DNA of 64,000 nt, taken from the NCBI GenBank assembly GCA_022825885.1, contig JAJDVY010000020.1, forward strand, positions 1 to 64,000, written 5' to 3'. A program made the position numbers and the translations under genes. The stretch is from Nitrospirales bacterium (GTDB taxonomy: Bacteria > Nitrospirota > Nitrospiria > Nitrospirales > UBA8639). The notes beneath the pieces are model-generated. The model was not told where the DNA came from. It ran no database searches and saw only the letters and a list, made by a program, of their open reading frames with translations. Numbering within the stretch: the first letter of the stretch is position 1; every line of letters starts with the position of its first letter. Shown here piece after piece: positions 31,585 through 43,274 of this stretch.

Positions 31585-34215
31585 TTGGAATGGGTATTCC
31601 TATTTGGAACGTTGGCCTTGAAACATTTGACGAGCCGGCCTTTCAGAACCATGCTCACGGTGGTCGGGGTCGGCGTCGGCGTCGCGGCCGTGTTGGCTAT
31701 CTCCCTGGCGAATCAAACGGTCTTCGAATCGTTTCAGCGAGCCGTCACGCGAGTTGCCGGCGAGGCCACAATTCATATCTCAGGGGCGGAGCAGCGACTC
31801 GATGAAACCCTGGTCGAACGGATTCGCCTGCATCCTGACGTCCAGGCAGTCCATCCGTATCTCTCACAATCCGTCATCCTCGAAACGGCTGACGGGGACA
31901 CCCGATCCAGCATGGTGTGGGGCTTGGACCTGTTGGACGTACTCGGTAGGGAGACGGGCATACGGCAATCCTCCGGTGACGAGGAATTCTCGCTGGATCC
32001 CTTGCTCAGCCCGGAAGCGATTTTTGTGGATCGCGAGTTGGCGACCGGTTTGGACGTGGCCCGAGGTGATCCCGTGACGGTCCACGTCGGGCCGCGTCGA
32101 TTCGGGACCACCGTGAGCCGGATATTGACGTTTTCCGAAGATGAAACACGATGGGATTCCATGGCCATCATGGATATTGCCGCCGCCCAGGTGCACTTGC
32201 AGCGGCTCGGCCAACTCGACGGAGTGGACGTGGTGACGACGCCCGGCGTGTCCGTGGACCGCGTGATGCAGGAACTGCAAGCGGGTCTGGGGCCTTCCGT
32301 CCTGGTCAATCGTCCGTCCCAACGTGACGCCCAGGTGCAACGGATGCTCACCTCCTTTCAGTTGAACCTCACCACGCTCAGTATGGTCGGGCTCTTCGTC
32401 GGAACGTTCTTGATCTACAACGCCGTCGGATTTTCCGTTGTTCAATATCGACGGGAAATTGGGATTCTGCGAGCGATAGGCATGTTTCGCAGGCACGTCG
32501 CCCTGTTGTTTCTGGGTGAAGCGATCATGACGGGCCTTGTTGGCGGATGCCTGGGTGCCGCGTTCGGGAGTGGGCTGGCGCATTGGCTCGTGGGGCTGGA
32601 ACGGGAAACGGTTTCCGAACTCTATGGCATTGCGACGCTGGGAGAACTGCCGCTCACGTTGCCCGTGTTGTTGGGAGGAGGTCTCCTGGGCACGGCCCTG
32701 TCCGTGATCGGGGCGTTGGGTCCATGCCTTGAGGCAAGCCGGACCGCGCCGGCGTTGGCCATTGCGCCCGGACAATATGAAGCCACGCGGCATCATCATG
32801 GCCGATGGACGTTCCTGGCCGTGGGCGTGCTGGGGTTGGCCGGGCTTCTCTCCTTACCCGGCCCGGTGAACGGCCTTCCCGTGTTTGGATATGCCGCGGC
32901 CTTTTGCGTCCTGTTGGGGTGCACGCTGCTCTCTCCCTTGGGCATTCACCTGCTGGGCTTGGCGGTCTCGTCGCGATCATCCCGGATTCCCGGTTGCGTC
33001 GAGGACAAGAGCCGAAGATGGGTCTCGATGTCGGGCCTCAACCCGGGGCCCATGACTCGCCTGGCCGCGGATCAGATTGTCCGGTCTTCGGGTCGAAACA
33101 GCGTCACGCTGTCGGCTTTTATGGTCGGCATTGCGATCGTCGTGGGTGTCGGGGTGATGATCGAGAGTTTCCGGGATACCGTAGTCCACTGGATCGACCA
33201 GACTCTGATGGCGGATCTGGTGGTGACGCCGCATGAGGAAGGCTTGGAAGCCGATGCGCATGACAACGTCTTTCGCATTTCTCCGGAAATGGTCCGGCGT
33301 GCGAAGGCGGTACCGGGCGTGGCAGCCGTAGATCCCTACCGTCAGGTGCGCATCCAAGTAGGATCCACCCAAGCCTACGTCGCGGCACGCGATCTCGTCC
33401 TTCACGCGGAGCGGAGTCGATACCTGTTCCTGGACGGCGACTCCTCTCAACGGCTCCGTCAAGCCATCGATGAACAAGGCGTGGTGGTGTCGGAAGTGTT
33501 GGCCCATCGGCTGGGAATCAATGCGGGTGACGTGCTGTCTTTGCCGACCGGAGGCGGGCAAAAGGAGTTTCCCGTGGTCGGAGTCTTCTACGATTATGCG
33601 ACGGACGGCGGAAAGATTGTGCTGGACCGGTCGCTGTATGAACGATGGTGGGGTGATCGCACGTCAACGGTGTTGGCGGTGTACCTTGAGCCGAACACGA
33701 GCGTTCAACGCGTGCGGGGCGACCTGAAAAAGGCGCTCGGCCCGCTCATACCGGTGTCGATCATCAGCAACACGGAACTCAGGTCGCATATCCTCAAAAT
33801 CTTTGATCGCACGTTTCGGTTGACCTACGGGTTGGAACTCGTCACGGTGATCGTCGGCCTGTTGGGAATTATCAATACGCTCCTGACGACCGTCGTCGAA
33901 CGACAACGGGAGTTTGCCACGTTTCGTGCGATCGGCGGCAGTCGCAGGCAAGTTCGGGGATTGGTGGTCCGCGAATCGCTTTGCCTGGGTTTCCTGGGGT
34001 TGGGTCTCGGGTTGTTCGCCGGGATCCTGCTTGCCACCCTCTTGATCAGCGTGATCAACAAACAGTCCTTCGGCTGGACCATCCACATGACCATCCCCTC
34101 CAAGACCATCCTGGAAGCCTTTCTGGTCGCGGGATTTACGGGGCTCTTAGCCGGGTATCTTCCGGCTCGCTGGGCGACCCACGGCGCTATCGCCGACGGG
34201 TTACGGTACGAGTGA
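31585..34215 (+). CDS. FtsX-like ABC transporter permease, tandem-domain
   Basis: The protein has 876 residues and starts at TTG 31585, with AGGAG about 10 nt upstream. It contains two MacB/FtsX units. An N-terminal span and periplasmic domain are followed by FtsX helices (SMVGLFVGTFLIYNAVGFSV, YRREIGILRAIGMFRRHVAL). A second periplasmic domain then leads to the last FtsX block (TVIVGLLGIINTLLTTVVER, QREFATFRAIGGSRRQVRGL). The fused arrangement works with one ATPase, most likely the gene at 28610. It probably handles lipoproteins, lipids or peptides at the inner membrane. Confidence 0.87.
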   Translation: MEWVFLFGTLALKHLTSRPFRTMLTVVGVGVGVAAVLAISLANQTVFESFQRAVTRVAGEATIHISGAEQRLDETLVERIRLHPDVQAVHPYLSQSVILETADGDTRSSMVWGLDLLDVLGRETGIRQSSGDEEFSLDPLLSPEAIFVDRELATGLDVARGDPVTVHVGPRRFGTTVSRILTFSEDETRWDSMAIMDIAAAQVHLQRLGQLDGVDVVTTPGVSVDRVMQELQAGLGPSVLVNRPSQRDAQVQRMLTSFQLNLTTLSMVGLFVGTFLIYNAVGFSVVQYRREIGILRAIGMFRRHVALLFLGEAIMTGLVGGCLGAAFGSGLAHWLVGLERETVSELYGIATLGELPLTLPVLLGGGLLGTALSVIGALGPCLEASRTAPALAIAPGQYEATRHHHGRWTFLAVGVLGLAGLLSLPGPVNGLPVFGYAAAFCVLLGCTLLSPLGIHLLGLAVSSRSSRIPGCVEDKSRRWVSMSGLNPGPMTRLAADQIVRSSGRNSVTLSAFMVGIAIVVGVGVMIESFRDTVVHWIDQTLMADLVVTPHEEGLEADAHDNVFRISPEMVRRAKAVPGVAAVDPYRQVRIQVGSTQAYVAARDLVLHAERSRYLFLDGDSSQRLRQAIDEQGVVVSEVLAHRLGINAGDVLSLPTGGGQKEFPVVGVFYDYATDGGKIVLDRSLYERWWGDRTSTVLAVYLEPNTSVQRVRGDLKKALGPLIPVSIISNTELRSHILKIFDRTFRLTYGLELVTVIVGLLGIINTLLTTVVERQREFATFRAIGGSRRQVRGLVVRESLCLGFLGLGLGLFAGILLATLLISVINKQSFGWTIHMTIPSKTILEAFLVAGFTGLLAGYLPARWATHGAIADGLRYE

Positions 34216-34349: not shown

Positions 34350-37232
34350 ATGGCTGCACCAAAGAGTAGGAAGACGAAAGCCGTAAAGGCTAAATCGAAA
34401 AAGGCGGAACCGTACAGGCATGCGGAGGCGATGAGCCTCATGCGGCCGGAAGTCGGGACCCAAGCCCAATTCAAGAAGAAGAAACCGCCCAAAACTTACC
34501 GTTACGATTCCTCATTGTCTCCGGCGCTTGATTGGGATGCCAAGAACCCTGCCCGCGAGCAGGGCGAAACGCTGATCGCACAACTTGAGCAACACATCGA
34601 AGAGTTGCGTATCGCCTCTTTACCCTCTCCCTCCGGGAGAGGGCAGGGTGAGGGCGCAGGTGAGGGTGAAGTTCTCAAGGCCCTGCGTCAGGCCGAAGAG
34701 ACGCTACGCCAGCTTAAAGCCCTGAGCAAACCCTTCCTGGACTGGGCGGGTAAAGCGGAACGTCTGTCTTTTGACGTGCCCACCTTGCCGCTGTTTATCC
34801 ACGAACGGCTCTCCACAAAAGCCATCATTGAAACGCTGGTAGGACACAAGACCGACAAGCAACTGGACATGTATGACCTGTTTGGTGATCCCCGGCATTC
34901 CATCACCGACCAGGTGCTGAAAGCCTATGAATATCCCGACCAATGGGTGAACCGGATGATCCTCGGTGATTCGCTCGTGGTCATGAACTCGTTGTTGCAC
35001 TATGAAGGGCTCGGCGGGCAAGTGCAGATGATCTATATGGACCCGCCCTATGGCGTGAAGTTCGGATCCAACTTCCAGCCTTTTGTCAAGAAGCGCGATG
35101 TCACACATAATGCCGATGACGACATGACCCGCGAGCCTGAAATGGTTCAGGCGTATCGGGACACATGGGAACTGGGCCTGCATTCCTACCTGACGTATTT
35201 GCGAGATCGGCTGCTGCTTGCCCGCGATCTGCTCGCGCCCAGCGGCAGCATTTTCCTTCAGATCAGTGATGAGAACCTGCACCACGTACGGGAAGTGATG
35301 GATGAGATTTTTGGGGCGGAGAACTTTGTTTCCCTGGTTGCTTTTGCAAAGACAACAGGCTTTGCAGGCAAAACGCTATCCTCTGTTGCAGATTTTATTC
35401 TCTGGTACGCGAAGGATACATCGAGGATCAAATACCGCCAATTGTATCGGCCAAAAGAAGCGGGAGATGAAGGTGCAACCAAATACAGGCCTCTTGGTAC
35501 TATTGAGGCAGCGCTAAAAGGGAAAATAGATCCAAGCCGCCTTGCGACGTCAGCTGATCTGACGTCGCAAGGCGAGTCACAGGCATCTGACCAAGAATTT
35601 GAATTTGGCAGCAGGAAATGGAAACCGCCGGTGGGTCTGCATTGGAAAACGACAATAGAAGGTCTTAACCGCTTGGCAGATGCTGGTCGTATCATGATTG
35701 AGGGCAAATCTCTGAGGTATGTTCGCTTTCTTGACGATTTTCCGGTTTTCCCAGTCGCTAATATTTGGTCAGATATTGGGGGAATTCAGAACCGAACCGA
35801 AGGCAAGCTTTACGTCGTGCAAACTGCTGCACTTGCTATTCAGCGCTGTCTTCTCATGACCACCGACCCGGGTGATCTTGTCCTTGACCCTTCATGTGGT
35901 AGCGGAACAACGGCCTTTGTCGCGGAGCAATGGGGACGCCGTTGGATCACAATTGATACCAGCCGTGTGCCGCTGGCGCTCGCTCGGCAACGTCTGTTGA
36001 CCGGCACGTTTCCCTGGCATGAACTTAAGGACGAGCAGCGTGGTCCGGCCGGAGGCTTTGTCTACAAGCGAAAGCAGAACAAAAAGGGTGAAGAGATCGG
36101 GGGCATCGTTCCGCACATCACCCTCAAATCCATTGCAAACAACGAACCTCCACTGGAGGAAATTCTTGTGGATCGTCCTGAGCAACAAAGCGGCATCACC
36201 CGCGTGACGGGGCCATTCTGCGTCGAGGCGACAATTCCCACACCCGTTGATTGGGAAGAAGCGTCACCCTCACCCTTGCCCTCTCCCACAGGGAGAGGGG
36301 AAAAAGAGTGGCCAGTCGAGGGAGAAGGCTACAGCTCTTTCGTGGATCGGATGCTGGAAGTGCTGCGCAAGAGTCCTGTCCTACGATTGGAGGGCAACAA
36401 GACCGTTACCTTCAAGAGTATCCGCCCGCCTGCAAAAACCTTGTCGCTTTCCGCTGAAGCCCTTGTTGATGCTACAGCACACGGTCAAAGTCCTTCTTTG
36501 TCAGAGGCGATTGATGAGGCGGAAGAGAAAAACAGTCGTCGGCTTCCGTTATCCGGGAAGCTAGTGGCGTTGGTGTTCGGACCTGAAAACGGAGCTGTCA
36601 GTGAGAAACTGGTGTATGAGGCCGCACGCGAAGCCCATGCCAAAAGCTATACTCATCTCTACGTCGTCGGTTTTGCCATTCAACCCAATGCTCGAACGTT
36701 GGTGGAAAAATGCACCGAGGTGGTGGGCGTGCCTGCTACCTACGTACAGGCCACTCCCGATTTGATGATGGGGGATCTGCTCAAGAATATGCGTTCCAGT
36801 CAGATTTTCAGTGTTTGCGGTCAGCCGGAAATTGTGGTGCAGAAAATAAAATCCCCCTCACCCCAGCCCTCTCCCTCCAGAGGAGAGGGAGTTTATTATC
36901 AAGTGGAGTTGCTCGGGTTGGATGTGTTCGATCCCGTCACCATGGAGGTGGTCCACCGGACCGGCGATGACGTGCCGGCCTGGTTTCTGGATATTGACTA
37001 TAACGACCTGTGTTTTCACGTTTCTCAGGCGTTCTTCCCACGAACTGGTGCCTGGAATAATCTCAAAAAGGCCTTGAAGGGCGAATACGACGAAAGCGTA
37101 TGGGATCATCTGTCTGGCAAGACGAGTGCGCCATTCCAAGCCGGTGAACACAAGCAAATTGCCGTGAAAGTCATAGACGACCGCGGGAACGAATTGCTGC
37201 TTGTGAAAAAACTGAATGGAGCCAGGGGGTGA
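34350..37232 (+). CDS. Type III-like modification DNA methyltransferase (Mod)
   Basis: The protein has 960 residues. It is an adenine-specific methyltransferase with motif order IV then I: MDPPYGVKFG near residue 231 and DPSCGSGTTAF near 513. That order and the long C-terminal region fit type III Mod. It is the first gene of a 4-bp-overlap run with an OLD-like nuclease and a Res helicase. Three in-frame copies of a palindromic repeat encode PSPSGRG/PSPTGRG/PSPSRGEG segments at about residues 91, 643 and 839. These look like insertions tolerated in loops. Confidence 0.88.
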   Translation: MAAPKSRKTKAVKAKSKKAEPYRHAEAMSLMRPEVGTQAQFKKKKPPKTYRYDSSLSPALDWDAKNPAREQGETLIAQLEQHIEELRIASLPSPSGRGQGEGAGEGEVLKALRQAEETLRQLKALSKPFLDWAGKAERLSFDVPTLPLFIHERLSTKAIIETLVGHKTDKQLDMYDLFGDPRHSITDQVLKAYEYPDQWVNRMILGDSLVVMNSLLHYEGLGGQVQMIYMDPPYGVKFGSNFQPFVKKRDVTHNADDDMTREPEMVQAYRDTWELGLHSYLTYLRDRLLLARDLLAPSGSIFLQISDENLHHVREVMDEIFGAENFVSLVAFAKTTGFAGKTLSSVADFILWYAKDTSRIKYRQLYRPKEAGDEGATKYRPLGTIEAALKGKIDPSRLATSADLTSQGESQASDQEFEFGSRKWKPPVGLHWKTTIEGLNRLADAGRIMIEGKSLRYVRFLDDFPVFPVANIWSDIGGIQNRTEGKLYVVQTAALAIQRCLLMTTDPGDLVLDPSCGSGTTAFVAEQWGRRWITIDTSRVPLALARQRLLTGTFPWHELKDEQRGPAGGFVYKRKQNKKGEEIGGIVPHITLKSIANNEPPLEEILVDRPEQQSGITRVTGPFCVEATIPTPVDWEEASPSPLPSPTGRGEKEWPVEGEGYSSFVDRMLEVLRKSPVLRLEGNKTVTFKSIRPPAKTLSLSAEALVDATAHGQSPSLSEAIDEAEEKNSRRLPLSGKLVALVFGPENGAVSEKLVYEAAREAHAKSYTHLYVVGFAIQPNARTLVEKCTEVVGVPATYVQATPDLMMGDLLKNMRSSQIFSVCGQPEIVVQKIKSPSPQPSPSRGEGVYYQVELLGLDVFDPVTMEVVHRTGDDVPAWFLDIDYNDLCFHVSQAFFPRTGAWNNLKKALKGEYDESVWDHLSGKTSAPFQAGEHKQIAVKVIDDRGNELLLVKKLNGARG
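34623..34643. repeat. Intragenic palindromic repeat in mod, copy 1
   Basis: CCCTCTCCC-TCC-GGGAGAGGG is a perfect 9-bp stem. The GGGTGAGGG-type extension follows on the right side. Confidence 0.85.
36264..36299. repeat. Intragenic palindromic repeat in mod, copy 2
   Basis: The stem is CCCTCTCCC-ACA-GGGAGAGGG (36279-36299), with the CACCCTCACCC extension on the left. It is inverted relative to copy 1 but read in the same codon phase. Confidence 0.85.
36853..36890. repeat. Intragenic palindromic repeat in mod, copy 3
   Basis: CCCTCTCC (36867-36874) pairs with GGAGAGGG (36882-36889), with CCCTCACCCC on the left. Orientation is as in copy 2, and the codon phase is again the same. Confidence 0.85.
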
Positions 37233-38887
37233 TCGAACAAATCACAATTCGGCGTTTCAAGCGTTTTGCCGATGTAACCTTCTCCCTTCCCGGACACGTC
37301 GTTATTGCCGGCCCCAATAATTGCGGAAAAACGACGATGTTGCAGGCCATTACGGCTTGGGATCTGGCGCTGACCTTCTGGAAGCAACGACACGATTACC
37401 AACGCCATAGGGGTTTTTACGTCAAAGTGCCTGTTGCCAGACAGACCTTCACAGCGGTTCCTCTTCGTGCTTTTGATCTTCTTTGGAACGATCGCAAATA
37501 TGCCGGTTCTATCGAGATTGAGGTTCGTCACTCTCAAGGGTGGACCGTCACTATGGAGTTGATGGCCGATAGCACGGAGCAGGTCTACGTGCGTCCCAAA
37601 CCTGATGTCGATCCGAATACGGTCAGACAGGTCGCACTCAATACGGCATTTGTTCCGCCTATGACGGGGCTCAGTATCGGAGAGCCCGTGTATCAACGAC
37701 CGAAAGTCGAACAACTGTTGGGCCAGGGAAAACCAGGCGACGTGATCCGGAATTTGCTGGTCGAGGCCCATCAAATTTCGGCATGGGACCCGCTCAGAGA
37801 TTCAATGAAGCGGCTTTTTCATTATGAAATTTTGCCTCCCGATGCGACGGGGGCTGATATCATTGCCGAATATCAGGACCATGCCGATGGACCACGGCTT
37901 GACATTGCGAGTGCCGGTAGTGGTTTTCAACAAGTGCTCATGCTCTTGACTTTTTTGCACACCCGGCCAGGTTCGATCCTGCTGCTGGACGAACCGGACG
38001 CGCACCTGCACGTGATTCTTCAGGATGCGATCTATGGGGAATTGCGCTCCGTCGCAGCCAAACAAAACTCGCAACTCATTATCTCCACGCATTCTGAGGT
38101 GATTATCAACTCCGTCGAGCCGCGTGAACTCTGTGTATTGCTTAACCAACCAAAGCTTTTGAATTCTGTTGTTGATCGAGAAAGACTAACCGCTTCCCTG
38201 GGGCTGTTATCCAACACGGATATTCTTTTGGCGCAGGATGCTCCCGGCATTTTATATGTCGAAGGGTATACGGATATCAATATTCTCGTTGAATGGGCAA
38301 AGATCCTGAATCATCCGGTGTATGAAACACTGACAACGCGATTATTTTGGAAACCGAGCGTCTGGGAGCCTAGGCCTGGGGCATCAGGAATCAAGGCCAA
38401 AGAACATTACGATGCCCTGAAACTTGTCCGCGAGGATTTACCGGGTTTGATCCTTCTCGATGGTGATGATCATTCGAGGATTCCTCCTACGGACGTGACG
38501 GGGAACGGATTACAACGCCTTCGCTGGAGTCGCTACGAAATTGAAAGCTATCTGGTACATCCAAATGCCTTGGAACGGTTCATCGAGAAACAAGTCGGTG
38601 CGGGGGCTCTTTCGGCGGAAGCCAGGAAAGATATGCTGGTCTATCTGGAGGAAACGTTTACCCCTGCCTTTCTTCAAGAACCCCTAAAGCCCAATCCTCT
38701 GGTCGATGCATATTTTCGTCAAAATAAGGCCAGAACAGAAGTCATTCCGCCAATTCTCGATGCGGCCGGATTGCATGGCTTTTCTTACACTCGCTTCAAT
38801 GAAATTGCTGCAGTGATACTTCCCGAAGAAATCCATCCCGAAGTCAAAGAAAAACTTGACGCCATTCAGCGGGCCTTTCGTCTATGA
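37229..38887 (+). CDS. OLD-like nuclease: AAA/ABC ATPase with TOPRIM domain
   Basis: The protein has 552 residues and starts at GTG, overlapping the mod stop by 4 bp. The ATPase part has Walker A AGPNNCGKTT (27-36), an SAGSGFQQVL signature-like loop, Walker B ILLLDEPDAHLH and STHSEV. The second part is TOPRIM-like, with the glutamate in ILYVEGYTD (~340) and the DxD in LILLDGDDH (~407). This is the OLD/Gabija-GajA type of architecture, normally a DNA nuclease gated by nucleotide. Its placement inside a Mod-Res operon suggests it joins or backs up restriction. Confidence 0.85.
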   Translation: MIEQITIRRFKRFADVTFSLPGHVVIAGPNNCGKTTMLQAITAWDLALTFWKQRHDYQRHRGFYVKVPVARQTFTAVPLRAFDLLWNDRKYAGSIEIEVRHSQGWTVTMELMADSTEQVYVRPKPDVDPNTVRQVALNTAFVPPMTGLSIGEPVYQRPKVEQLLGQGKPGDVIRNLLVEAHQISAWDPLRDSMKRLFHYEILPPDATGADIIAEYQDHADGPRLDIASAGSGFQQVLMLLTFLHTRPGSILLLDEPDAHLHVILQDAIYGELRSVAAKQNSQLIISTHSEVIINSVEPRELCVLLNQPKLLNSVVDRERLTASLGLLSNTDILLAQDAPGILYVEGYTDINILVEWAKILNHPVYETLTTRLFWKPSVWEPRPGASGIKAKEHYDALKLVREDLPGLILLDGDDHSRIPPTDVTGNGLQRLRWSRYEIESYLVHPNALERFIEKQVGAGALSAEARKDMLVYLEETFTPAFLQEPLKPNPLVDAYFRQNKARTEVIPPILDAAGLHGFSYTRFNEIAAVILPEEIHPEVKEKLDAIQRAFRL

Positions 38888-41800
38888 GTGCGTATGAAGT
38901 TCCCCAGCCTATCCTGAATTCTCCTTTCGCAGAACCACAGGGACACTGGCACATTGTCGAAGGCGAAACGCCTTCAAGAAAACCGGGTCGTCGCCCGGCC
39001 ATGTATTTCTATCGCGATCCCAAGGCTAAACCTGAGAAAGAGTACGGGAATGTTGCTGCCACCACTATCGAACTGAAGCTGGTCAACCGCATTCGAGCGC
39101 AGGTCAAGAAATGGCGGGCGGAAGGGTATCCCGGTGTCACCAGGACCACCCAGGAGTTGCTTCAATGGTGGCAACGCGAAGGAAGAAAGAATCGACTCTT
39201 CTTTGCCCAACGCGATGCCGCTGAAACGATTATTTTTCTCACCGAGGCCCGGAAGGATTTTCTACAGGGTGTCGACGTTCCCCAGGAAGAAGTGAGCGAT
39301 GAGAAAAGGGCTCAAGGGTTTGGAGGATTCCGTCGCTATGCCTGCAAGATGGCAACGGGCTCCGGTAAGACGACCGTCATGGGAATGCTTGCAGCATGGA
39401 GCATTCTCAATAAAGTTAACGACCGTCAGGATAGACGATTTTCAGAGGTCGTGCTGGTCGTTTGTCCGAATGTGACGATCCGCAACCGGCTTCGGGAACT
39501 TGATCCGAAGGAAGGCGAAGCCAGTCTGTATTGTACCCGCGATCTTGTTCCATCGCATTTAATGCCTTTATTAACGCAGGGTCGCGTTTTGGTCAGAAAT
39601 TGGCACGTGTTCGAGCCGCAGGCTATCCAAACGGGCGGTGTGGGTTCCAGGGTGATGAAAGCGGGGGTGGAGGTTTGCACCAAAGAGACCATTACCATCG
39701 GTTCACAAACTACGACGGCCCGTGGTCGACGCTACCTGACCTTGAAGGATTTTGAACGTCAAGTTGCCGCTGGCATGCTTACTGTACGGGATGAAGAAAT
39801 CGGCAAAGATGGAAGCCTGCTAAAGGTCACGGTTGAATCGAGTCGCTATGTTGAAAGCGATACGGCTCTTCTTAATCGTCTTCTTGGTCGAGAAGTCGGA
39901 GAAAAACAGAACATTCTTATCATGAACGATGAGGCGCACCATGCCTATCGCATCGTTCGTGAGAAAAAAGATAAAGATGAAGAAGATCTTTTCGGCGAGG
40001 AAGAAGATGCCGAAGATTTTTTCAAGGAGGCCACGGTTTGGATTGATGGCTTGGATCGTATCCAGAAACATCGGGGAATCAATTTCTGTCTGGATCTCTC
40101 GGCGACGCCTTATTTTCTCGGACGAGTCGGACAGGACACGAATCGGCCGTTTCCTTGGGTGGTCAGCGACTTTGGTTTAATTGATGCCATCGAATCCGGA
40201 CTGGTGAAGATTCCGCAACTGGCCGTTCGGGATACGACCGGCAAAGAGATCCCCGGTTACTTCAATATTTGGCATTGGATTTTACCGCAACTGACCGCTG
40301 CCGAACGTGGCGGCAAGAAAGCCAATCCCAAGCCGGAAGCTATCCTGAAGTATGCCCATCATCCCATCGCCATGCTTGGGGGGCTCTGGGAAAAAGAAAG
40401 CGAGGAATGGAGCCAGGATCAGGAAGATCCACGCCCCCCTGTTTTTATTATCGTTTGCAAAAACACACAGATTGCCAAGGTGCTTTATGAATGGTTGGCT
40501 GAGGGTCGAGCGCCAACGGGAATTCCACCGCTAAAGGTCGAAGGATTTAAGAATAATGGTAGCCAGAACACGATCCGCGTAGATTCCAAGGTTGTGCATG
40601 AATCCGACTCTGGCGAGGCTAAAAGTAGCGAGGTGCGTTGGATGCGTTTTACTCTTGATACCGTGGGGAAGACCGCGTGGCCTACCGATCAAATGGGCCG
40701 TCCTCTTTACCCCGATGAATTCAAAGAACTGGCCGATAAGCTTAAGAAACCGGATCATCCACCCGGTCGTGACGTGCGGTGTATTGTTAGCGTGGGCATG
40801 TTGACCGAAGGTTGGGACTGCAACACGGTGACGCACATCATCGGTCTACGTCCCTTTATGTCTCAACTCCTGTGTGAGCAGGTCGTTGGACGTGGTTTGC
40901 GCCGGACAAATTACGAGGTCGGTCCGGATGGGATGCTGACCGAGGAAACGGCCAAAGTGTTCGGAGTTCCTTTCGAGGTTATCCCGTTCAAAGCTTCACC
41001 GAAGGTTCAAACTCAATCACGGGTCAAGCGATATCACGTTCATGCCCTGCCCGCGAAATCACGTTATGAAATCACTTTCCCTCGCGCTGAAGGGTACACC
41101 CAAGCGATTCACAATCGCCTGACCGTAGACTGGGAGAGGATCGCTCCCCAAATATTGGAACCGGATCGTATCCCTCCTGAAGTTGAAATGAAGGGTTTGC
41201 ACGTCAACAATCAAGGAAGGCTTTCACTGAGTGGACCGGGTCGATGTGACGATGTCACTCTAAAGGAGTTTCGGGCCAAATGCCGAACTCAGGAATTAGT
41301 GTTTGACCTTGCCCAAACGCTTACGCGGGATCACGTTGCTCAGAATCAATGCTCCGTTCCCGCCCACAAGCTTTTTCCCCAGTTGGCTGCCATTATTCAA
41401 CGCTATCTTAATACGAGGGTCACGGCTCTACCGCCCGCGGACAAAAAAGATATTTTTCTTGCGCCGTACTACGGTTGGGTTGTCGAGCGCTTATTGGAGG
41501 CTATTCGTCCTGATGCCTCGCAAGGTGAAGCCCCGGAAGTGCCTCGCTACGAAACCATGCGGGGGCCTGGCTCCACGGCTGAGGTGGATTTCTGGACCAG
41601 CCGTGAGGTGAGGGAAGTTGGGAAAAGCCACCTGAATTACATGGTTGCCGATACTCAAAAATGGGAACAGTCCACGGCCTATTTCCTGGATAAGAATGAG
41701 TCGGTTGAGGCTTTTGTGAAAAACGCCGGTCTGGGATTTGCCATCCCGTATCTCCATAACGGCCAAATGCACGACTATGTTCCTGATTTTATCGTTCGTC

Positions 41801-41997
41801 TAAGCGCCGATCCGCCACGACACTTGATCCTTGAAACAAAAGGCTATGATCCGTTGGAAGAGGTCAAGCGCGCCGCTGCAGAACGATGGGTAAGCGCGGT
41901 CAATGCCGATGGAACGTTTGGGCAATGGGGATATGCCATTGCCAAGAAGGTGTCGGATGTTCCAAAGATCCTAAAGAGCGTTTCTAAGAGTCAATGA
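38884..41997 (+). CDS. Type III-like restriction subunit (Res helicase-nuclease)
   Basis: The protein has 1037 residues and overlaps the OLD-like gene by 4 bp. The SF2 helicase motifs are MATGSGKTTVMGM (~157), MNDEAHHAYR (~348), LDLSATPYF and the late EGWDCNTVTHIIGLRP...VVGRGLRR. The C-terminal PD-(D/E)xK nuclease has PDFIVRL and LILETKGYDP (~965-985). It would translocate on and cut DNA lacking Mod methylation. The Mod gene is separated from it by the OLD-like gene, unlike a classical mod-res pair. Confidence 0.88.
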   Translation: MSAYEVPQPILNSPFAEPQGHWHIVEGETPSRKPGRRPAMYFYRDPKAKPEKEYGNVAATTIELKLVNRIRAQVKKWRAEGYPGVTRTTQELLQWWQREGRKNRLFFAQRDAAETIIFLTEARKDFLQGVDVPQEEVSDEKRAQGFGGFRRYACKMATGSGKTTVMGMLAAWSILNKVNDRQDRRFSEVVLVVCPNVTIRNRLRELDPKEGEASLYCTRDLVPSHLMPLLTQGRVLVRNWHVFEPQAIQTGGVGSRVMKAGVEVCTKETITIGSQTTTARGRRYLTLKDFERQVAAGMLTVRDEEIGKDGSLLKVTVESSRYVESDTALLNRLLGREVGEKQNILIMNDEAHHAYRIVREKKDKDEEDLFGEEEDAEDFFKEATVWIDGLDRIQKHRGINFCLDLSATPYFLGRVGQDTNRPFPWVVSDFGLIDAIESGLVKIPQLAVRDTTGKEIPGYFNIWHWILPQLTAAERGGKKANPKPEAILKYAHHPIAMLGGLWEKESEEWSQDQEDPRPPVFIIVCKNTQIAKVLYEWLAEGRAPTGIPPLKVEGFKNNGSQNTIRVDSKVVHESDSGEAKSSEVRWMRFTLDTVGKTAWPTDQMGRPLYPDEFKELADKLKKPDHPPGRDVRCIVSVGMLTEGWDCNTVTHIIGLRPFMSQLLCEQVVGRGLRRTNYEVGPDGMLTEETAKVFGVPFEVIPFKASPKVQTQSRVKRYHVHALPAKSRYEITFPRAEGYTQAIHNRLTVDWERIAPQILEPDRIPPEVEMKGLHVNNQGRLSLSGPGRCDDVTLKEFRAKCRTQELVFDLAQTLTRDHVAQNQCSVPAHKLFPQLAAIIQRYLNTRVTALPPADKKDIFLAPYYGWVVERLLEAIRPDASQGEAPEVPRYETMRGPGSTAEVDFWTSREVREVGKSHLNYMVADTQKWEQSTAYFLDKNESVEAFVKNAGLGFAIPYLHNGQMHDYVPDFIVRLSADPPRHLILETKGYDPLEEVKRAAAERWVSAVNADGTFGQWGYAIAKKVSDVPKILKSVSKSQ

Positions 41998-42287: not shown

Positions 42288-43274
42288 TTAACAGGGTGCT
42301 GGCTGCCCTGTCACTTCGAAGCCCATGTCCTTCAGCATCCGTTGCACTTCGCGGGCGGGATCGCCCGGTGTCGTGAGGTAGCCGTTGACGAACAGCGAGT
42401 CCGCCACGTAGAGGGCCATGGGTTGCAGGGACCGGAGATTGAACTCTCGCCCGCCCGCCGCGCGCAGCTCTCTTTGCGGATGAATAAAGCGGAACAGGCA
42501 GAGGATTTTCAGGCATCGTTGCGGGGTCAGGTGTTTGGCGTCGGCCAAGGGGGTGCCCGGAATCGGATGCAGCATGTTCAACGGGATTGAGTCGGGATTG
42601 AGGTCTTTCAGGGCGAAGGCCAGATCGACCAGGTCTTCGTCGGATTCTCCCATGCCGATAATGCCGCCCGAACACAATTCCAATCCGGCGGCGCGCGCGT
42701 TTTGCAAGGTGGTCACTCGATCCCGGTACGTGTGGGTCGTGCAGATGGAGGAGTGATAGGCCTCGCTCGTGTTCAGATTGTGGTTGATGCGATCGACGCC
42801 CGCGGCTTTGAGTCGTTTGGCCTGGGGTTCGGTCAGGAGTCCCAGGGAACAGCAGACCTGCATCGGAAGTTCCCGTTTGATCCGTTGCACCGCGGAGGCG
42901 ATGTCGTCCACTTCCTTTTCGAGCGGGCTTCTTCCGCTGATCACCACGCAGTACCGTTCCGCCTTGGCTTCATGGGCACGGCGGGCGGCCTTGAGCATGT
43001 CCTCCGGTGACACCAACGCGTAGCGGTCGATGGGAGCGGTGGAGATGCTGGATTGCGAACAATAATGACAATCTTCCTGACAGGCGCCGCTCTTGGCGTT
43101 GAACAACATTTGGATCGTGACTCTTCGACCGAAATAGGCGTGGCGAATCGTATACGCGGCGTTGACGAGGGGTAACAGTTGGGTGTCGTCGGTTTGAAGA
43201 AGTGCCAAGCCTTCTTCGCGCGTGATGGAATGACCTTGCAGCACCTGTTCCGCGAGAACGTCGAATCGAGTCAT
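42288..43274 (-). CDS. bioB: Biotin synthase
   Basis: The protein has 328 residues. It is a radical-SAM enzyme with the CQEDCHYCSQS cluster motif near residue 60. It inserts sulfur into dethiobiotin, with a second auxiliary [2Fe-2S] cluster. Conserved YNHNLNTSE-like (INHNLNTSEAYH) and GGIIGMGES motifs are present. It is a single gene; no other bio genes are adjacent. The minus-strand gene ends about 100 bp from the type III-like island, marking the island's right border. Confidence 0.96.
   Translation of the reverse strand: MTRFDVLAEQVLQGHSITREEGLALLQTDDTQLLPLVNAAYTIRHAYFGRRVTIQMLFNAKSGACQEDCHYCSQSSISTAPIDRYALVSPEDMLKAARRAHEAKAERYCVVISGRSPLEKEVDDIASAVQRIKRELPMQVCCSLGLLTEPQAKRLKAAGVDRINHNLNTSEAYHSSICTTHTYRDRVTTLQNARAAGLELCSGGIIGMGESDEDLVDLAFALKDLNPDSIPLNMLHPIPGTPLADAKHLTPQRCLKILCLFRFIHPQRELRAAGGREFNLRSLQPMALYVADSLFVNGYLTTPGDPAREVQRMLKDMGFEVTGQPAPC

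Follow-up and report, generated by a model that had tools for sequence, protein, structure and literature searches.

Why should a gene for an OLD-type nuclease lie between the methyltransferase gene (mod) and the restriction gene (res) of a type III-like restriction-modification (RM) locus? The question is raised by positions 34350 to 41997 of a 64,000-nucleotide stretch of DNA, hereafter the window, from a Nitrospirales bacterium (lineage UBA8639; GenBank assembly GCA_022825885.1, contig JAJDVY010000020.1, positions 1 to 64,000, forward strand). A preliminary description of this DNA had proposed a three-gene defence system. The operon, its OLD nuclease and its conservation stood up to our analysis; a fixed third component did not, and an interchangeable effector cassette fits better. 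Our preferred reading, at a probability of about one half, is that a type III-like RM system carries OLD as a second-line effector in a slot between mod and res whose contents can be exchanged, an interchangeable backup or guard like PrrC in type Ic operons.

The three-gene operon and its conservation

The co-directional arrangement of three genes with an OLD-type nuclease is upheld by the open reading frames (ORFs), the motifs and a domain model. Its parts are as follows:

34350..37232, + strand: mod, a type III-like (beta-class N6-adenine) DNA methyltransferase of 960 aa (ORF list, profile matches, motifs)
35329..35835, + strand: central part of mod, where the DNA ceases to match that of L004, the nearest relative (blastn gap); probably the target-recognition region
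37214..37232, + strand: last codons of mod, the left edge of the exchangeable slot (ends of blastn homology)
37229..38887, + strand: the slot gene, an OLD-family ABC-ATPase and TOPRIM nuclease of 552 aa with a GTG start, overlapping mod and res by 4 bp each
38204..38884, + strand: C-terminal TOPRIM domain of the OLD protein, with E345, D349, D411, D413 and E439 (alignment, domain model, motifs)
38884, + strand: start codon of res, the right edge of the slot (blastn homology edges)
38884..41997, + strand: res, a type III-like SF2 helicase and PD-(D/E)XK endonuclease of the BPTD_3080 family, 1037 aa

The two overlaps described earlier are confirmed by the ORFs and by the junction sequences, which read ...GGGGGTGATCG... 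between mod and the OLD gene (GTGA) and ...CTATGAGTG... between the OLD gene and res (ATGA). By gene layout, an effector gene lies within an RM operon, as in RM-embedded guards of the PrrC kind, and catalytic motifs are present in Mod, OLD and Res alike. The top PADLOC model for Mod is Type III methyltransferase (E 4.4e-147), and Mod also matches Pfam N6_N4_Mtase. The beta class of methyltransferases is defined by a DPPY motif that precedes FxGxG; Mod has this order, as expected of a type III Mod, with DPPY at 231 and DPSCGSGT at 513. Res matches the NCBIfam model NF046055, 'BPTD_3080 family restriction endonuclease', at 1048 bits (cut-off 800) over residues 7-1032; in Pfam it matches ResIII above the cut-off and RE_endonuc weakly (16.4 vs a cut-off of 23.4). 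Its helicase motifs and its C-terminal nuclease motif, VPDF(966)...ETK(983), are those of a type III Res. Cleavage by type III enzymes depends on ATP and on a pair of unmodified sites in inverse orientation.

The middle protein has the N-terminal ATPase of the OLD/SMC-like ABC group (Pfam AAA_15/AAA_21), with Walker A at 28, LLLDEP at 251 and THSE at 287. Its TOPRIM motifs are YVEGYTD at 343 (E345) and LLDGDD at 409 (D411, D413), so that the residues first named as ~E344 and D411 are right to within one position. The possibility that the gene lacks TOPRIM residues did not come true: in a 16-row alignment E345 is kept in 15 rows and D349, D411 and E439 in all 16, and the second D of DxD is missing from the distant relatives L002, L132 and L134. 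For a model of the whole protein (mean pLDDT 74), the best match in the PDB is Thermus OLD, 6p74. Because the VIA-align matches of this model cover residues 1-332 only, the C-terminal domain was modelled separately (pLDDT 83); its top five PDB chains are C-terminal regions of Xanthomonas and Burkholderia OLD. Fold and acidic residues together identify a predicted OLD nuclease with a C-terminal TOPRIM domain. The dN/dS ratio (nonsynonymous to synonymous substitution), taken between the window and L004 (Nitrospira sp. bin75), has the values 0.105 (OLD), 0.129 (Res) and 0.162 (Mod); dS is saturated for wider pairs. The OLD gene is therefore under constraint (purifying selection) like its neighbours.

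The order mod-OLD-res is conserved across two phyla. OLD relatives were searched for in 345 Nitrospirota genomes and in 369 genomes from the class of a Rhodocyclaceae metagenome-assembled genome (G345). All seven with at least 50% identity sit between mod and res, five in Nitrospirota and two in the class of the Rhodocyclaceae genome (the window, G302, which is the genome of L004, G284, G330, G108, G345, which holds L005, and G562). The same order in other genomes rules out a strain-specific accident or assembly artefact, and the fear that the arrangement might be unique to one strain is laid to rest. Among the 20 matches below 50% identity listed by these searches, two (L062, L140) are flanked by mod and res, one (L220) lies between decayed pieces of both, and one (L081) upstream of Res, where mod was not found; the remaining 16 have neither gene in the examined stretch (15 by tblastn, L002 by ORF list only).

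These distributions bear on the main rival explanation, which we consider rather unlikely: that a self-sufficient OLD nuclease, or a toxin-antitoxin (TA) module, merely occupies a permissive, expressed and often recombined insertion point, with no functional contact with Mod or Res. The 18 of 20 more distant relatives outside an intact mod-res pair agree with it, as do those members of the lower-identity subfamily that stand after other operons, but the closest clade is found in the slot every time (7/7).

Several of the more distant OLD loci have their own surroundings. At L081:4472-15647 a Res without mod has around it one OLD-TOPRIM of the single-gene kind, a pair of OLD-like ATPases, each with a small gene behind it, and another ATPase; the region is a pile of OLD-type modules. 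L002:1501-3216 (C18:9218-10909 in its own genome) is a second OLD gene (34%) of the same genome as the window, in which the TOPRIM DxD has become DRT. At L131:5731-10234 (+) and L130:3590-8147 (-) the same OLD subfamily (35%) closes an operon with three conserved genes, which by eye look like multi-ubiquitin, ThiF/JAB and small-protein genes. A tblastn search of plasmids with OLD gave partial matches only, in 12 records below 60% identity; of two that were opened, one lies within BREX and the other next to genes for DUF1156 and DUF499. In viral contigs, 18 loci encode relatives of the OLD alignment, mostly low-identity or partial; ORFs were listed for three of them (L150-L152), and L150, which was checked for mod and res, has neither.

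An exchangeable slot between mod and res

We asked what stands at the same junction in related loci. Res searches matched 58 of the 345 Nitrospirota genomes at E 1e-30 and 23 of the 369 genomes in the class of G345 at E 1e-60, and the sample, which is not random, consists of ranked Res matches and 9 chosen from 51 plasmid records. We examined 84 loci and dropped 11 without mod in the examined stretch, which leaves 73 with mod and res; L067 (a duplicate of L004) and six OLD-only loci were left out. The gap between mod and res is at least 200 bp in 49 loci, below 60 bp in 22 and in between in 2. With the window included, the slot is occupied in 50 of 74.

The 49 occupied slots contain TA genes in 15 cases (PIN+DUF2281, nucleotidyltransferase+HEPN, BrnT, HicA, HepT, MqsA-like, DUF2442), an OLD-ABC gene plus partner in 8 and a single-gene OLD-TOPRIM in 7, followed by Bro-N (4), YhcG (3), DUF4062/HATPase_c_4 (3), Fic (2) and one each of DUF3800, NOV_C, AAA_14-DUF4143 and a DUF1828/DUF2283 group; three remain without a label. 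PADLOC names HEC-01 (L061), PDC-S35 and PDC-M47-like (L075), PD-T4-4-like (L114) and PDC-S01 (L057). We assigned the labels from Pfam and PADLOC results and BLAST clusters; the MqsA-like and HicB matches are below Pfam cut-offs, L063 is a remnant only and L048 an MqsA-like fragment only. Judged by these profiles, the contents are mostly toxins, TA genes or known or candidate defence modules. Such variety, with many complete TA pairs, would again suit modules that are merely housed at the junction; their nearly flush fit with the core genes speaks against this, since no more than 10 bp separate the first slot gene from the upstream stop in 35 of the 49 and the last from the downstream start in 31, with both true of 22. 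In the close relatives L059, L063, L064 and L066 Res is split into two or three ORFs, for which frameshift, decay and assembly error are alike possible.

As a control, we searched the 345 Nitrospirota genomes for EcoP15I-like Res (NF012027) and found it in 23 at E 1e-80, in each case under the family cut-off. In the 20 stretches taken, mod was found in 14; six of these loci are closed (3-14 bp) and eight have the two genes at least 500 bp apart. Seven of the eight hold identified inserts, namely YhcG, GmrSD, DUF2442, OLD, Bro-N, an ATPase (weak PHP match) with AlbA_2, and AlbA_2/HATPase_c_4; the eighth gap (L176) has no same-strand ORF. An occupied slot is therefore not peculiar to the BPTD_3080 Res family, and the earlier premise that classical type III loci have only mod and res does not hold here. 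A classical type III-like locus at L183:9356-15770 has the order res-OLD-mod; its OLD matches Pfam OLD-like_TOPRIM, and in a profile comparison with the window OLD the ATPase half alone aligned.

The contents of the slot have been exchanged repeatedly. On a quick tree of the 27 Res proteins that are at least 45% identical to that of the window, in which 11 of 24 inner branches are open, the contents change at least 13 times, and between OLD-TOPRIM and something else at least 5 times. The sister Res proteins of L061 and L062 stand beside OLD+DUF4276 and OLD-TOPRIM, respectively, and L048 and L050, alike over most of their 16 kb stretches including the flanks, hold an MqsA-like gene vs a DUF2281/PIN pair. 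Loci whose Res is ~80% identical carry a TA pair or another module at the same junction; across the set, OLD is replaced there by toxin-antitoxin, TIR, Fic, YhcG, Bro-N or other modules.

This replacement, together with the 22 of 73 loci in which the slot is empty, leaves the idea of OLD as a fixed third component or helper of Res unsupported. An integral third subunit, in which the OLD ATPase and nuclease would act with Mod-Res on the same DNA as second nuclease or motor, accounts for the 4-bp overlaps and for the confinement of the close OLD clade to the slot. We judge it improbable, weakened as it is because similar cores do without OLD: where Res is ~80% identical the slot is taken by other modules, and in more distant cores by nothing. 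In L062, moreover, OLD is 39% identical and Res 65%, and an OLD so much more diverged was probably acquired separately.

The edges of the exchanged segment, taken as the ends of blastn alignments, are sharp. Homology ends 4-19 bp before the mod stop in the pairs L050/L048, L055/L056, L055/L058, window/L047, window/L053 and L062/L061; for the window it ends at 37214 against L047 and 37213 against L053, both of which have other contents. It restarts at the res start in L050, L055 and the window and 12 bp inside res for L062. The listed Res ORF of L056 starts 48 bp upstream of the restarted homology and is probably over-extended.

Three of the 50 slots found at a threshold of 150 bp (instead of the 200 bp of the census, which gave 49) contain a second copy of the mod C-terminal coding sequence that scores above all 200 shuffles (coordinates in the orientation of mod): L047:1201-1284, between PIN and nucleotidyltransferase genes (score 123, shuffle maximum 45); L075:7612-7692, between a TIR gene and an OLD gene (82, maximum 43); and L077:5506-5580 (92, maximum 47). 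The window slot has no such copy. All three slots hold several modules, with the copy where modules meet, as would be expected after recombination through the mod tail. The copies are possible scars of module insertion and suggest cassette exchange through the mod 3' end. A broader proposal, tentative and at somewhat less than even odds, is that type III systems have, at the mod/res junction, a genuine site of cassette acquisition: suicide modules would arrive with the mod 3' end or recombine through it, stack in tandem, leaving mod-tail copies, and swap among relatives, one core serving as a platform for interchangeable second-line effectors tuned by co-translation.

A proposed second-line effector and its precedents

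How might such an effector work? Where the gene lies, the swapping of slot contents for suicide modules and the selection on the gene would all suit a guard or backup effector kept within the operon. Mod would methylate, and Mod-Res would cleave unmodified DNA, while co-translation would hold the OLD protein at a level matched to Mod and Res. OLD would stay silent as long as restriction is effective. Once restriction is disabled by a phage, or with the build-up of DNA ends and nucleotide changes, the ABC domain would activate the TOPRIM nuclease, which may then damage phage and host nucleic acid in an abortive infection (cf. PrrC beside EcoprrI, and AriA/AriB on sensing Ocr). Over longer times, the modules would be swapped by recombination through the mod 3' end.

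Three observations weigh against this proposal. Many slot modules carry their own antitoxin and need no RM inhibition, and the slot may therefore select merely for an expressed operon; the Pfam OLD-like_TOPRIM model does not match the window OLD protein, a weak point; and in the L004 OLD, the odd row of the alignment, D replaces E345. A degenerate pseudo-TOPRIM is not favoured, as motifs, fold and a dN/dS of 0.1 speak against it despite the L004 change and the DxD losses.

Toxins in type I and III RM loci, their repeated displacement and the coupling of immunity to suicide were noted in 2012 (PMC3506569), and PrrC and PARIS have been described as RM guardians (PMC12707154). PrrC beside EcoprrI is a tested precedent, and OLD-type AriA a tested anti-restriction sensor (PMC12707154, PMC3710099). 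PrrC resembles the window OLD as an ABC-ATPase and nuclease effector inside an RM operon and, on our reading, as a second line upon restriction failure (PMC3506569, PMC3710099, PMC12707154), but it has a HEPN anticodon nuclease and a type I host, whereas the window has TOPRIM in a type III-like host. A guard of the PrrC kind is kept silent by its RM enzyme and set free from it, as the window OLD would be. The 2012 loci share the principle of one toxin repeatedly replaced by another; here, in contrast, whole TA pairs occupy one exact mod/res position, and mod tails are duplicated in three slots (PMC3506569).

Among OLD-type systems, class 1 and 2 OLD nucleases and Gabija GajA likewise combine ABC-ATPase and TOPRIM in a single chain, but class 1 OLD are single genes away from other defence genes, whereas the window OLD sits in an RM operon, and no GajB-type helicase stands beside it (PMC10568477). 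Gabija was rejected for lack of an adjacent UvrD/PcrA-like GajB, the neighbours being mod and type III Res. PARIS AriA/AriB pairs an OLD-type ATPase with a TOPRIM effector that guards restriction, mostly as two genes and with no RM operon, unlike the one chain within an RM operon seen here (PMC12707154, PMC10568477); PADLOC AriA models cover the ATPase half of the window OLD only in part. OLD-ABC modules of BREX and BREX-related systems place OLD-TOPRIM inside a defence operon as a proposed backup effector, the host system being BREX instead of a type III-like mod-res (PMC12839542). Hma also has helicase, methylase and ATPase genes, but its HmaC belongs to the DUF499 ATPases and its core is a different one (PMC8565338, PMC12839542); Hma was rejected, with no DUF499 among the eight Pfam families of the middle protein.

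A literature search recognised no paper on mod-OLD-res or the slot, although the ABC-ATPase classification of Krishnan et al. 2020 (cited by PMC12839542 and PMC10568477) may mention such loci; it returned nothing on BPTD_3080, nor on type III restriction with 'overcoming lysogenization'. The present analysis adds the exact slot, the OLD clade tied to it, the sharp edges, the full TA pairs and the duplicated mod tails. Should blocked restriction set the slot effectors free, type III RM loci would defend in two layers, and many kinds of guard effector could be sought in the slot. The 2012 hypothesis of immunity-suicide coupling becomes directly testable, with one restriction core and many natural effectors at the same position.

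Chromosomal site and low-complexity inserts within mod

The operon is flanked by two genes:

31585..34215, + strand: MacB-like ABC transporter permease, left flank
42288..43274, - strand: bioB, right flank

The site between these two genes was followed through 14 genomes of the window's genus. Res is intact beside bioB in two (the window and G302) and present as remnants in three (L198, L201, L202); in six, MacB adjoins bioB without a Res remnant, and in three neither is visible in the examined stretch. Given intact, remnant and empty sites, the system has resided here from an earlier time and is now being lost.

Such loss, with remnants in 3/14 and none next to MacB in 6/14, would suit a further explanation, that slot toxins chiefly stabilise the RM locus against loss instead of serving phage defence, as would the TA-type contents of 15 of the 49 occupied slots. 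By the ORF list, however, OLD has no antitoxin gene in its operon, and slots elsewhere include TIR, YhcG, HEC-01-like and PD-T4-4-like modules, several matching defence models; we regard addiction as slightly less probable still than an integral subunit.

A minor feature of Mod is a set of three in-frame low-complexity inserts, at 34626-34670 (SPSGRGQGEG), 36264-36308 (SPSPLPSPTGRGE) and 36852-36893 (SPSPQPSPSRGEG), with coding DNA of the CCCTCTCCC...GGGAGAGGG type; the second is missing in the relative L004. They look like a dispersed repeat inside the gene, and a genome search with the repeat pattern gave no exact copies and five sites with 1-2 mismatches, against one for the control.

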